A DNA stretch of 64,000 bases from Natrinema mahii (GTDB taxonomy: Archaea; Halobacteriota; Halobacteria; Halobacteriales; Natrialbaceae): contig JHUT02000004.1 in NCBI GenBank assembly GCA_000690595.2, forward strand, positions 124,001 to 188,000, written 5' to 3'. The notes under the pieces were generated by a model. That model was not told the DNA's origin and did not search any database. It saw only the letters and a program-made list of their open reading frames with translations. Below, piece after piece: positions 21,814 to 30,724 of this stretch; position 1 is the first letter of the stretch, and the number at the start of each line of letters is the position of its first letter. The translations under genes and the position numbers were made by a program.

Positions 21814-23904
21814 TTACCGCCGCCGGACTGCCAGTACCGTCGCGAACAGCAGTAGAACCGAGCCGAGCGTCGCCGAAACCCCGAAGCCGGGGACGTCGTC
21901 GATCGCCGCGGCCGGCCCCGTCTCGCCGACATCGACCGTCGCCGTTCGCTCGCCGACGCCGACCTCGTACCGACCCGCCTCGTCGAACCGGAGTTGCGCC
22001 TCGACCGTCGCCGTCCCGTCGGGACGGACCGCCACCGGTCGCTCGGCGGCGACGCCGTCGACCGTCCGGAACGCGAGGACGGCGGCCCCGGACCCGTCGC
22101 CGGCGGCCTCGACGGTTGCGGTCGCCGTCACCGCCTCGCCGGGGTCGACCGACTCGGGCTCGAGTCGGAGGTCGGTGACGGTCACGCTCGGGGCCGAGCG
22201 GACGACGGCCGTCAGCCGCTCCGAGCCGACGCGCAGAACGTACGTCCCGGGCTCCGCGGGCGTCCACGAGAGCCGGTGAGAGCGCTCCTCGCCGGGCGCG
22301 AGCGTCCCCTGCCGACGGTCGACGGTCCGGCCGTCGGCTCCCAGCGTCAGATCGTAGGTCCCCTCGCGCTCGCCAACGTTGCCGACCGTCGCCGGGACCG
22401 TCACGGCCTCGCCGGCGGGCACGACGATCGCCTCGTCAGTGCCGGCCTCGACGCCCGCCTCGGACGCCGACCACCGCGGCCACTCCTCGCCGGCGACCTC
22501 GATCGGACCCGTCCCGAACCCGGATGCGAAGCTCGCGACCGACTGGTCGAACGCGGCCCGGTGGTCCGTTCGACTCCACACGGCGGGCGTCGCGTCCGTT
22601 CGGGTGTAGCGCTCGGCGTCGGTCCGGACGGCCGACCCGCCGTAGGCCTCGATCGATCCCAGGAGGTCCGCCTCGGTCACCGCGTCGTCGTCGGCGTTCA
22701 GGTCCCGGACGACGTCCGCCAGCGTTCGATCACCGTCGGTCGCAACGCGTAACTGGCGGTCGATCTCGCCCGCGACGAGCGCGCCGTTGACGTAATCGGT
22801 CCGGTCGTGTTCCCACGTCGTGGGGTCGGCGAGCGCGCCATCGGCGTAGGGCGATTCCGTCCCGCGCTCGAGCAGTCGACTGAACTGCTCGAAATCGGTG
22901 TATCCGGCCTCGAGAGCCAGCAATCCCGCGTGGTAATCCGCCTGTCCCTCGACGACCCACTCGGTCTCGGTCGTCGTCCCGTCGGCGGTGTTTGCAAAGC
23001 GCTGGCGGACGTGGACGTACTCGTGGAGCCAGGCCGGGTTCGGACTGTCGAGCGGTTCGTCCGCGACGACCCAGGCGTCGGACGCGCCGTACTGGATGCC
23101 CCGCGGCCCCCAGTCGACGGTGTCGGGGACCGCGACGACGAACGTCTCGTCGGGTCGCGCCCCGACCTCGAGTCGGTCGCTCGCGTCGGCCAGCGCCGAG
23201 AGGATCGCGTCGGGCGACTCCTCGAGCGTCGCGGCCTCGGGGACCGCCAGCCGGAACCGCTCCCCGTCGACGGTCCGCTCGCGTTCGGTCACCGCGCCGA
23301 AGAAGGCGATGTCGCCGCCGGTCGCGCCGGGGCCGTCGACGCGGACCGTCTTTTCGATGCCGACCGGATCCGTCCGGCGCAGCGAGATCGCCACGTCCGG
23401 AACCGGGACGACCGCCCACTCGCCGGTGTCGACGAAGGAATACCCCTCGCCGGCCGCGTCGGCACCCCGCTCGCCCGTTCGATCGGCCGGCATCGTATAT
23501 CGGACCGTCGGCTCGTCGGCATCCCCCGTCCACTCGAGGGTCCGCTCGCCGGTCCGCTCGAAGCCGGTCGTCGACTCGACGGTCGCACCGTCCTCGAGTT
23601 CGATCTCGAGTTCCGTCACCGAGTCGGGGACGCGAAAGGCAGTTTCCACCTCGAAGACGTCCGTGTCCGACGGCCGATGCCGGAGCGTCGTCGTCCGGTG
23701 AAGGACGTCCGACGACGTGGTCGGCGTCGCGACGTCGACGGATGGGACATCGGTCGTCGCAGCCGAAACCGCAAACGACTCGTCGGGACCGACGGTCGAC
23801 GCGGCCGATTCCGCGCCAGCGGCCGCCTCGAGCGGGCCGACACCGGCCGGGAGGCTACAGGCGAGCAAGACGACGAACGCGAGAGTCACGAACCGGGAGG
23901 TCAC
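21814..23904 (-). CDS. Secreted, PGF-CTERM-anchored gluzincin-like metallopeptidase
   Basis: A 696-residue surface protein. A signal peptide (about 1-28) is followed by a beta-rich N-terminal domain (to about 245), then a peptidase-like domain with HEYVH (His294, Glu295, His298) and a downstream EWVVEGQADYH in which Glu319 is the likely third zinc ligand, the gluzincin pattern. Two beta-sandwich repeats, CARDB-like, occupy about 470-650. The end has PGFG, a hydrophobic helix and RRR, the archaeosortase-processed PGF-CTERM signal. Start is GTG, with a TATA-like CATAAAAG (minus-strand sense) 30 bp upstream. Substrate unknown. Confidence 0.8.
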   Translation of the reverse strand: MTSRFVTLAFVVLLACSLPAGVGPLEAAAGAESAASTVGPDESFAVSAATTDVPSVDVATPTTSSDVLHRTTTLRHRPSDTDVFEVETAFRVPDSVTELEIELEDGATVESTTGFERTGERTLEWTGDADEPTVRYTMPADRTGERGADAAGEGYSFVDTGEWAVVPVPDVAISLRRTDPVGIEKTVRVDGPGATGGDIAFFGAVTERERTVDGERFRLAVPEAATLEESPDAILSALADASDRLEVGARPDETFVVAVPDTVDWGPRGIQYGASDAWVVADEPLDSPNPAWLHEYVHVRQRFANTADGTTTETEWVVEGQADYHAGLLALEAGYTDFEQFSRLLERGTESPYADGALADPTTWEHDRTDYVNGALVAGEIDRQLRVATDGDRTLADVVRDLNADDDAVTEADLLGSIEAYGGSAVRTDAERYTRTDATPAVWSRTDHRAAFDQSVASFASGFGTGPIEVAGEEWPRWSASEAGVEAGTDEAIVVPAGEAVTVPATVGNVGEREGTYDLTLGADGRTVDRRQGTLAPGEERSHRLSWTPAEPGTYVLRVGSERLTAVVRSAPSVTVTDLRLEPESVDPGEAVTATATVEAAGDGSGAAVLAFRTVDGVAAERPVAVRPDGTATVEAQLRFDEAGRYEVGVGERTATVDVGETGPAAAIDDVPGFGVSATLGSVLLLFATVLAVRRR

Positions 23905-27653: not shown

Positions 27654-28307
27654 TCAGTCCGTGACGACGACGACCCGCTCGGCTTCCAGATCGACCTGCG
27701 CTTCGTATCGCGGCTCGTTCGATCCCGGTTCGCTGATCGCGACGGTGACGTCGTCCTCGGCGTACGTCTGCTCGGCCGGCGAAACCACGACTGCGTCGTC
27801 TTCCCGCTCGACGGTGAAGTCCTCGGATTCACCGGTGAACGTCCGGGCCGTGGTCCCGTTTTCCGCCTCGACGGTCGTCGTCTCCGAGAGGGAGATCGAC
27901 GTTTGCTGCATCGAGTCGGCGTGGATCCCCTTGATTGGTTCGACCGCGAGTTCGTACTCGTCCATCGATTCGAGCCGCCGCGTGACGGTTTCGTTGTCGC
28001 GCGCGATCTCGAGCGCGCGGTCGCGTTCCGCGTCCGTCAGCGGATCGGCCGGCTCGGAATCGACGGTCAGCCGACCGTCGGCCGCCGCGATCTCGATCGA
28101 CTCGGTTCCGGAGACGTTCTCGAGGACGGTGACCTCGCTGTCGCCGTCCGAAAACGTCACGTCGGTCCCGGAGACGCTGAACTCGCCGCCGGAGCCGGTC
28201 GCGATCGGGTCGCCGAGTCCGACGGCGGCCCCCGCCCACGCTGTTCCGACGCCGAACGACGCGAGCGCGAGCAGCGCGATCAGCCGGACGGCGATGGGGC
28301 GGTTCAT
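27654..28307 (-). CDS. Secreted protein A of a regulator-linked cassette
   Basis: A 217-residue exported protein with a clear signal peptide (cleavage likely after AWA at 25) and no lipobox, cysteine or membrane tail, so it is probably released or loosely held. The centre has a helical then strand module, LTDAERDRALEIARDNETV and RRLESMDEYELAVEPI (about 90-125), which also occurs in the secreted protein at 29196-30212. The C terminus is beta-rich and acidic. It is divergent from a membrane-anchored winged-helix regulator and shares a promoter region with phased GTTTCA repeats. Function unknown; PepSY-like is one possible fold. Confidence 0.78.
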   Translation of the reverse strand: MNRPIAVRLIALLALASFGVGTAWAGAAVGLGDPIATGSGGEFSVSGTDVTFSDGDSEVTVLENVSGTESIEIAAADGRLTVDSEPADPLTDAERDRALEIARDNETVTRRLESMDEYELAVEPIKGIHADSMQQTSISLSETTTVEAENGTTARTFTGESEDFTVEREDDAVVVSPAEQTYAEDDVTVAISEPGSNEPRYEAQVDLEAERVVVVTD

Positions 28308-28354
28308 ACGTTTTCCGTTGTCCGGAAGTCCTCATCAACGTTGTGTCGAAACTC

Positions 28355-28393
28355 GTTTGAAACGCGTTTCAAGCGCGTTTCAGTGGTGTTTCA
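28355..28393. promoter_or_regulatory. Four GTTT(C/G)A repeats, 11 bp apart, with a 16-bp palindrome
   Basis: GTTTGA at 28355 and GTTTCA at 28366, 28377 and 28388 are spaced exactly one helical turn apart. The first two form the perfect palindrome TTGAAACGCGTTTCAA at 28357-28372. They lie in the 144 bp between the divergent secreted protein A and the winged-helix regulator, and a related site occurs at 29067-29103 before the third gene. This is the layout of a cooperative operator for the local regulator. Confidence 0.7.
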
Positions 28394-28451
28394 CGGCGGT
28401 TCTTCCGATCAGAATCGGTGGTCATTAGGAGACGTGTTCGAATGGCGACCT

Positions 28452-29024
28452 ATGGACCTGCGGGCCCTCCACACGAGACAACTCTTCGCGGCGGTCCTCT
28501 TTCTCGCGTCGACGGTCGTCCTGGCGATTCAACTGATCAACCCGTCGCCGGTCATGGTCACGGTCGGCGAAAACGGGACCGAAGTCGCCGAGCTGGGTGG
28601 TTACTTCGAATACACCGACGTTGCAGTGATCGCGACCGCGGCGTGTTCGCTCGGTGCGAGCGGCACGTACGTCCTCCTCGGCGGGTCCGCCGGTGACCCG
28701 GCGAGCGCACGGGAACGGCGAACCGGCGACGGGGACGTAGCGGGGCCGGCTCCCGTCGAGACGGAACCCGACGGCGAACCGAGCGACGAACTCCTCGAGG
28801 CCCGCCGCCGGGAATGGGAGGAGACGGCCGAGCGGCTCGCGAACAACGAGCGAGCGATCTACGAGACGCTGCTCGAGGCCGACGGCGTGTTGCCCCAGAG
28901 CGAGATCGTCGAGCGGACCGACCTGTCGAAAGCGACCGTCAGTCGGGGACTGGACGGCCTCGAGACCAAGAACCTCGTCGAGCGGAAGCGACGCGGGATG
29001 GGGAACACGGTCTTGCTGTTGTAA
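28452..29024 (+). CDS. Membrane-anchored winged-helix transcription regulator
   Basis: A 190-residue one-component regulator. Two membrane helices (about 10-29 and 56-77) enclose a 26-residue outer loop with VMVTVGENGTEVAELGG. A long polar linker follows, then a MarR/TrmB-like winged helix (about 130-190): NNERAIYETLLEADG, the recognition helix SKATVSRGLDGL, and a wing ending ERKRRGMGNTV. It would sense the cell envelope and bind DNA from the membrane. Its flanking genes both encode exported proteins that share a module, and phased operator-like repeats precede both, which suggests it controls them. Confidence 0.82.
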   Translation: MDLRALHTRQLFAAVLFLASTVVLAIQLINPSPVMVTVGENGTEVAELGGYFEYTDVAVIATAACSLGASGTYVLLGGSAGDPASARERRTGDGDVAGPAPVETEPDGEPSDELLEARRREWEETAERLANNERAIYETLLEADGVLPQSEIVERTDLSKATVSRGLDGLETKNLVERKRRGMGNTVLLL

Positions 29025-29066
29025 GAGGGACGCCGTATCGATCGAAATACCGCCCGTAACCGTTCC

Positions 29067-29103
29067 GAAACGCGTTTTCAACGGGTGACTAAGGGGGCTT
29101 TCA
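29067..29103. promoter_or_regulatory. Second GTTTTCA/GAAACGCG operator-like site
   Basis: GAAACGCGTTTTC (29067-29079) is a near copy of the palindrome at 28357-28372 with one extra T. A further TTTCA at 29099-29103 lies 23 bp from the first TTTCA, about two helical turns. The site is between the regulator gene and the secreted protein that starts at 29196. Confidence 0.55.
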
Positions 29104-29195
29104 AACGACCCGTAACCGGGCGGCGCGAACGACCGACCCGGCGGAACGATCGACGCCCGTCGACGGCCGGTCGACGCGTTCGCCCGAGAGACATC

Positions 29196-30212
29196 ATGCA
29201 AACGAAAACGAAACTGACCGCACTCGCGCTCGCGGTACTGCTCGCCATCGGGACCGGTGGCATCGCCGCCGCGACCGGCGCGAGTTCCGGGACTGACGAA
29301 CTGGCCGACGAACCGCACCACCAGTCGACGGTCGACGTCGACGGATACGAGTTCACGGTGTCGACCGAAGACGACGGGTTCGGCGCGGAACGAACCGCCG
29401 ACCTCGAGGCGATCCCGGCGATGATACTGGACGACGACGAGGCCGGGGACTGGCTCCGCGATCACGTCGAAACGGACGACCTCGTCCTCGAAGTCTACGG
29501 CTCGCTACAGCGAGACGACGACAGCGCACACGTCCGTATCCATCCTGACCGAACGGCCGAACACGGGGACGCGCGTCCCCTGCTGGAAGCGACGGTCGAC
29601 ACCGAGACCGGCACCGTCGACGTCGTCGGCACCGACACCGGCCCCGTCGAGTCGGCACACCGACTCGAGGCCACGGAAGCGACCGATATCGACGTGTCCG
29701 AACGGACGGTCGAACTCGTCGACGACGGGGCGACCGTGGACGACCTGTCGACCGACGTGGTGTCCGCCGTGGAGTCCGTCGCCCGGTTCGACGTCCGGTC
29801 GGTAGCGACCGTCGCCGACGGGGAGACGTTTACCGTCGATACCGACGCCGACGACACCGATCGAGCGTCGACCGACGCCGACCTCGCGGTTCGCGATCCG
29901 GACGGCGAACTGACCGACACCGAACTCGAGACGGTTCGAACGCTCGTGACGAACGACGAAGCGGCGACGGAGCGGTTACGGGATCGGTTCCCGACCGCCG
30001 AGACGATCACGCTGACCGTCCACGGCGTCGAGTCGAGCGGTGACGTACACGTCGACGCCACTGCGCCGGGTGACAACCCCGAGACGGCAGTCGTCGTCTC
30101 CCCGTCCAGCGGCAACGTGTCGGTCGATGCGGCTACGCTGCTGGAAACCAGTGAGAGTAGCCGGATCGACGTCGGCGGCTCGACGGTCGTCCAGAAGACT
30201 ACCGAAGCGTAA
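29196..30212 (+). CDS. Secreted protein B of the regulator-linked cassette, two repeats
   Basis: A 338-residue exported acidic protein with a signal peptide (about 1-26) and no lipobox, cysteine or C-terminal anchor. It consists of two similar halves. The first has ILDDDEAGDWLRDHVETDD and LVLEVYGSLQRDDDSAHV; the second has LVTNDEAATERLRDRFPTAE and ITLTVHGVESSGDVHV. The same helix-strand module occurs once in secreted protein A upstream. It follows the membrane winged-helix regulator on the same strand, with an operator-like site between them. No known domain can be named with confidence. Confidence 0.78.
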   Translation: MQTKTKLTALALAVLLAIGTGGIAAATGASSGTDELADEPHHQSTVDVDGYEFTVSTEDDGFGAERTADLEAIPAMILDDDEAGDWLRDHVETDDLVLEVYGSLQRDDDSAHVRIHPDRTAEHGDARPLLEATVDTETGTVDVVGTDTGPVESAHRLEATEATDIDVSERTVELVDDGATVDDLSTDVVSAVESVARFDVRSVATVADGETFTVDTDADDTDRASTDADLAVRDPDGELTDTELETVRTLVTNDEAATERLRDRFPTAETITLTVHGVESSGDVHVDATAPGDNPETAVVVSPSSGNVSVDAATLLETSESSRIDVGGSTVVQKTTEA

Positions 30213-30365: not shown

Positions 30366-30596
30366 TCAGACGTACTCGGAGAGGACCTTCTGGTAGCCGA
30401 CGCCGTACGCACCGGCGTACAGCATGAGGCCGCCGAGCGCGCCGAGCCACAGGGCGATCATCGCCTCACCCGCACCGAGGTGTTGGAGGCTCGCCTGTTC
30501 GACGAGGACGCCGCCGACCGTCAAGGCCCCAGCGACGACGGTATAGAGGAGCAGTTGCAGTGCTTCCGCGAGCAGTTCCGGCCCGATGGATGTCAT
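30366..30596 (-). CDS. Small membrane protein
   Basis: A 76-residue protein with two hydrophobic helices (about 8-30 and 46-66). ATG 30596 is preferred over one at 30659, because the added residues would be basic and cysteine-containing and unlike a haloarchaeal N terminus. A GTTTACC (minus-strand sense) about 30 bp upstream may be its TATA box. No family recognised. It may belong with the nearby uracil-DNA glycosylase only by position; the two genes are divergent. Confidence 0.65.
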   Translation of the reverse strand: MTSIGPELLAEALQLLLYTVVAGALTVGGVLVEQASLQHLGAGEAMIALWLGALGGLMLYAGAYGVGYQKVLSEYV

Positions 30597-30724
30597 CAGT
30601 ACCCCCAGTACCCACCCACACAAGGTAAACCTGTCCCCTCGCGTGCGACGAATCCGCACGGGCGGCGACGACTACGTCGACCGAGAACCGACTCGGCTAA
30701 ACCGCTGGGGACGTAGTCCGGACC

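Follow-up and report, generated by a model that had tools for sequence, protein, structure and literature searches.

A membrane-anchored winged-helix regulator (R) and two exported proteins (A and B), encoded by adjacent genes of Natrinema mahii, form what we hold, with somewhat better than even confidence, to be a self-contained envelope-signalling cassette. R would act as a membrane one-component regulator and A as its co-regulator, in a ToxR/ToxS-like logic built from unrelated parts. The cassette was found in about a fifth of the haloarchaea sampled, and the R-A pair also occurs in other archaea. Little is known of how archaea transfer envelope information to transcription, ArnR being the main archaeal membrane-bound transcription factor in the literature searched, and the cassette points to an undescribed archaeal way to sense the cell envelope.

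The regulator and its two exported neighbours

The three open reading frames were found where the sequence-only reading had placed them in the window (the whole stretch of 64,000 nucleotides that was analysed):

27654..28307, minus strand: A, 217 aa, exported, probably membrane-anchored protein (AlphaFold2, conserved N-terminal helix, adjacency to R)
28452..29024, plus strand: R, 190 aa, membrane-anchored winged-helix regulator (Pfam DUF7343, orthologue alignment, per-segment conservation)
29196..30212, plus strand: B, 338 aa, exported two-module paralogue of A (hhalign, AlphaFold2, presence in 68/80 loci)

The two membrane helices and the C-terminal winged helix that had been read into R were both borne out. 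Hydrophobic segments lie at approximately residues 10 to 28 and 56 to 78, separated by an outer loop (29 to 55) and followed by a linker (79 to 125) and the winged helix (approximately 126 to 190). The latter belongs to DUF7343 (PF24034; E 2e-11, 44 bits against a curated cut-off of 27.6 in Pfam) and also matches MarR_2 (E 2.6e-8), while the nearest solved chain is the Lrs14-like protein 6cmv (E 2.5e-5). No HAMP match was obtained in Pfam. Conservation of the outer loop was nearly equal to that of the winged helix (2.6 versus 2.87 bits per column). A cytoplasmic winged helix with a conserved, externally exposed loop of about 27 residues is the best explanation for these features. The relative of R in Natrinema thermotolerans DSM 11552 is 98% identical to that of the window.

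Both A and B carry an N-terminal hydrophobic export segment, in agreement with the earlier proposal that they are exported, but A has the appearance of a membrane-anchored protein rather than of a freely secreted one. Its N-terminal helix, with conserved R8, L15, G19xxxA23 and G30, is among the most conserved parts of the protein and is thus unlike an ordinary cleaved signal peptide; G19 and A23 are kept in 42 of 46 A sequences, in a pattern resembling a classic helix-packing motif. A is therefore probably anchored through this helix, although it could also be a signal peptide under unusual constraint. The outer domains of A and B evolve fast.

Neither protein showed a convincing family in Pfam, NCBIfam, PADLOC or PHROG, and no second copies of A or B were found elsewhere in the genome. 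That the two share a module, as had been suggested, was confirmed by profile-profile comparison and by AlphaFold2, with the correction that B contains two copies and A one. Thus, hhalign matched A without its N-terminal segment to the first module of B (probability 95%, E 1.8e-8) and the first module of B to the second (probability 98%, E 1.5e-14). In the models, a beta-alpha-alpha-beta(3-4) module occupies residues 79 to 217 of A, with a confident core, and occurs twice in B (43 to 146 and 229 to 311); mean pLDDT values were 72 for A and 67 for B, the modules being confident although the whole models are not. The relatives of B found in the second gene layout described below reach about 507 residues (L147, 1470-2987; L148, 1348-2868; L149, 1466-2986), which suggests a further duplication of the module.

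The best structural neighbours of the module were the N-terminal domains of copper amine oxidases (Z of at most 8.9; rmsd 3.6, 81 aligned residues). YpmB (Z 5.2), the vibriolysin propeptide (Z 4.8) and YpeB (Z 4.7) followed, with values below 8 that fall within noise by the tool's own warning. Foldseek returned nothing at E 0.001 with either model, and a PepSY profile matched none of 46 A-family and 36 B-family sequences at E 0.05. Since its structural neighbours are weak to moderate, we term the fold cystatin/PepSY-like without claiming membership. PepSY/cystatin-like envelope domains (YpeB, YpmB, M4 propeptides, copper amine oxidase N-domains) pack a helix on a curved sheet and usually lie outside the cell, features that the modules of A and B may share, but sequence profiles do not link the two groups and the structural similarity is weak to moderate.

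These similarities could also be read as control or inhibition of secreted proteases, the propeptide-like module of A and B binding and regulating an exported enzyme while R reports protease load. The resemblance to the vibriolysin propeptide, YpmB and YpeB fits such a role, but it lies within noise, the best neighbours are copper amine oxidase domains, none of the 82 family members matches PepSY and no protease recurs as a neighbour, all of which makes this reading very improbable. Two other genes of the window lie near the cassette. That at 21814-23904 (minus strand) encodes a large exported protein, which has a CARDB domain and weakly matches M61 peptidase; that at 30366-30659 (minus strand), between B and a gene of the uracil-DNA glycosylase family, encodes a 97-residue membrane protein without a Pfam match.

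Co-occurrence, layouts and mobility in haloarchaea

A profile search with R at E 1e-12 detected relatives in 87 of 392 haloarchaeal genomes, belonging to 31 of 95 genera. The clear R family, which we delimited at E below 1e-30, comprised 77 genomes, a few of them affected by contig ends, and the A profile was found in 75 of the 392. R and A occurred together in 74 genomes, R without A in 3 and A without R in 1 (Fisher p 3.6e-75, a statistic that ignores relatedness). In the single A-only genome the match (G190:C6:311306-311962) spans a TGA codon, and no R was detected at the cut used.

Joint retention of the three genes in other genomes had been put forward as a check on the sequence-only reading, and it held: of 80 R loci, 78 had A and 68 had B in the vicinity. 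In the most frequent layout, which includes that of the window (43/80 loci), A is divergent from R and B lies downstream of R. In a second layout (24/80), A immediately precedes R in the same orientation and B is divergent from A. B is absent from ten loci that contain A and R, one locus (L097) is rearranged and two lack a recognisable A. The latter two (L128, 5373-5780; L129, 5411-6157) carry an unrelated-looking exported protein divergent from R, and A may have been replaced there or have diverged past recognition. When the ORFs around the 80 R loci were clustered, no other recurrent neighbour was detected; the surroundings vary by genome, and the larger clusters are mostly frame-shadow ORFs or shared synteny of close relatives. 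In several Natrinema, a PspA/IM30 gene (Pfam E 5.8e-32) follows R on the same strand (L005, approximately 2100-2938; also L057, L058, L060 and L061), and this membrane-stress protein may be a hint to the stress that is sensed.

R, A and B diverge together, as judged from their sequences: pairwise distances correlated at 0.78 (R-A), 0.71 (R-B) and 0.85 (A-B), compared with at most 0.09 for permuted labels, bearing in mind that related sequences, or sequences transferred jointly, correlate even without contact. The nearest R belonged to another family for 17 of 76 loci, and R identity inside one genus was as low as 40%; thus, the cassette appears to move horizontally as one unit. Many copies are located on large plasmids.

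Patchy distribution, plasmid locations, cassette types that recur across families rather than inside genera and fast-evolving outer domains of A and B would also suit an antagonism or self-recognition cassette, in which A and B were exported effectors or surface proteins, directed against relatives or serving to recognise them, and R a quorum- or damage-sensing switch; archaeal islands of secreted proteins have often been proposed to act in conflicts (PMC4158269). We regard this explanation as improbable: no toxin, nuclease or lytic domain was found in Pfam, PADLOC recognised nothing but the winged helix, phage records gave no match, no linked gene recurs and the A-R pair is widely conserved. 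Anti-phage defence, for which A and B had no PADLOC match and R only one through its generic winged helix, and a phage origin, for which no informative PHROG match was obtained either, were both rejected.

A conserved candidate operator array between A and R

Four candidate regulatory elements were recognised in the intergenic regions of the cassette:

28333..28338, minus strand: putative TATA element of A, TTGATG on the minus strand, 26 to 31 nt before the start codon (conserved in the A-R intergenic alignment)
28347..28393, no strand assigned: candidate operator array between A and R (half-site counts, conservation in relatives)
28423..28428, plus strand: putative TATA element of R, CATTAG, 24 to 29 nt before the start codon (conserved in the same alignment)
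29067..29102, no strand assigned: weak candidate operator before B, GAAACGCGTTTTC at 29067-29079 plus CTTTC at 29098-29102

The array consists of GAAAC/GTTTC half-sites that repeat every 11 bp about a GAAACNNGTTTC palindrome, and it was found in nearly all loci and in both layouts. In the window there are five half-sites, GAAAC at 28348 and 28359 and GTTTC at 28366, 28377 and 28388, and the central palindrome is GAAACGCGTTTC (28359-28370). The 170 bp upstream of A in relatives contain 3.85 half-sites in the first layout and 5.15 in the second, compared with 0.31 in shuffled sequences, and in 119 cases neighbouring half-sites of the same strand are spaced exactly 11 bp apart. The distance between the start codons of A and R is 134 to 151 bp in 41 of 52 divergent loci.

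Operator-like motifs had been noted ahead of both flanking genes. That before A is indeed an array, while B is preceded in the window by a single imperfect palindrome plus CTTTC. In relatives with the first layout, the region before B contains a mean of 1.80 half-sites per 170 bp (0.27 in shuffled sequences), which is weaker than the A array and above chance, and two TTTC motifs 24 bp apart were present in 11 of 44 loci, with an expectation of 0.0.

In the genome of N. mahii, the tandem and extended array patterns were found at the cassette only. When 29 genomes of the genus were scanned for the extended pattern (at most two mismatches), 10 of the 11 that contain R had it, in every case at the R locus, and 2 of the 18 that lack R had a single match with two mismatches. 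A regulon beyond the cassette was also sought with the bare 12-bp palindrome and was rejected, counts being alike and low in genomes with R (2 to 10) and without it (3 to 5); the informative signal is thus the extended array only. Some half-site-poor loci have altered recognition helices in R (SEATVSR, SKSHVSR), but others have the usual one, so that this comparison does not prove the specificity of R. Altogether, the near-invariable pairing, the coevolution and an operator that accompanies R and is all but confined to the cassette lend good, if inferential, support to the earlier proposal that R controls its exported neighbours.

The A-R pair outside haloarchaea

Relatives of R with the same topology were detected in other Halobacteriota (L230, L233 and L234, from a separate whole-genome search) and in metagenome-assembled genomes (MAGs) that bear labels such as Bathyarchaeota, Diapherotrites, Thaumarchaeota and Altiarchaeales. 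A single study is the source of many of these MAGs, and mis-binning may account for the labels, which makes the number of phyla uncertain. Most of the non-halophilic loci examined have an A-like gene immediately before R and in the same orientation, and in several GAAACNNGTTTC (GAAAC-NN-GTTTC) lies upstream of A, in some cases with a further GTTTC 25 bp on. B was not detected in the non-halophilic loci. The arrangement is far more widespread than could be known from the window, and probably older too, and the A-R pair looks older than B on this distribution. Since B is also missing from 10 of the 78 haloarchaeal A-R loci, it is not essential.

We give an even chance to a broader reading, namely, that these loci represent a widespread archaeal class of transmembrane one-component systems made of a winged-helix regulator, a dedicated anchored sensor A and a GAAACNNGTTTC operator that is conserved. 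The class would be ancestral to Halobacteriota at the least and would exist in further archaeal lineages, and haloarchaea would have added B to it, spreading the self-regulating cassette horizontally.

R could instead be a local repressor or activator of the ordinary kind that happens to be anchored in the membrane and that senses it directly through its helices and loop (lipid state, osmotic or redox change), with A and B as mere outputs that return no signal. The helices and outer loop of R are conserved in their own right, and an operator beside A, B and R requires no feedback. However, it is A, not B, that stays beside R across archaea, and the highly conserved membrane helix of A is more readily explained by a membrane partner than by an output, and we consider this alternative rather unlikely.

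Proposed mechanism and relation to known systems

In the envelope-signalling model that we favour, R would be held in the membrane by its two helices, its winged helix facing the cytoplasm. It would act as a dimer or oligomer whose winged helices bind the GAAAC array that separates the promoters of the divergent genes A and R and, presumably, also the weaker site before B, thereby controlling A, B, itself and apparently little else. A would be anchored beside R through its conserved N-terminal helix, and its outer cystatin/PepSY-like domain might read an envelope condition and set the activity of R, by analogy with ToxS and ToxR. B, in haloarchaea, would be an output, and it might also compete as a ligand of A or R. 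With the genes of its own partners under the control of R, a feedback loop would result. The sequence-only reading had R sensing the state of the envelope, possibly with an exported neighbour as ligand; this is plausible and can now be put more specifically, and the interpretation as a whole is partly supported. A is the likelier signalling partner, being the constant companion of R and having its N-terminal helix among its most conserved parts.

We lean slightly towards activation rather than repression of A and B by R, since the array precedes the putative TATA element of A as well as that of R, and in archaea an operator upstream of TATA is more usual for activators. In relatives, a half-site-like CTTTC lies between the putative TATA element and the start of A, which repression would fit equally.

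The closest logic is that of ToxR/ToxS, in which ToxS is the operon-encoded co-activator of the membrane winged-helix regulator ToxR (PMC7496328). Like TcpP/TcpH and PsaE/PsaF, also of Gram-negatives, it is a one-component system that combines a membrane winged-helix regulator with a modulating envelope partner. The cassette likewise combines its regulator with a probably anchored envelope protein, A, which neighbours R in 78 of the 80 loci. In ToxR, the winged helix is cytoplasmic and N-terminal and comes with a single membrane helix and a periplasmic domain, whereas in R it is C-terminal and MarR/TrmB-like and comes with two membrane helices and a small loop; no relation was seen between A and ToxS, and the regulon seems confined to the cassette, unlike that of ToxR/ToxS.

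The closest archaeal case is ArnR/ArnR1 of Sulfolobus acidocaldarius, with an N-terminal HTH, a HAMP, a sensor domain and C-terminal membrane helices; ArnR controls archaellum and pili promoters and is conserved in Sulfolobales and Desulfurococcales (PMC6396743). Both ArnR/ArnR1 and R are archaeal membrane-bound one-component regulators with an HTH and two membrane helices, but R differs in its reversed domain order, in its lack of HAMP and in its dedicated partners A and B. R is thus a member of neither system. Its DNA-binding domain is one of the DUF7343/MarR-TrmB type of archaeal regulators, names that cover the winged helix only; the membrane part, the operator and the partners are absent from the literature found. 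In a search that left most subscription papers outside, no paper named DUF7343 or DUF7345, and the literature within the same reach on archaeal membrane regulators and PepSY partners contained no description of the cassette.

Two haloarchaea that serve as laboratory organisms, Haloferax mediterranei (E6P09_RS15890/15895/15900) and Haloarcula hispanica (HAH_RS19045/19040/19035), carry the cassette on large plasmids. Its compactness, its defined operator and its two candidate targets in these two species make the mechanism directly testable. For their part, some genomes contain two different R loci (G160, G248, G095, G317 and G362) and offer a natural test of operator and partner specificity.
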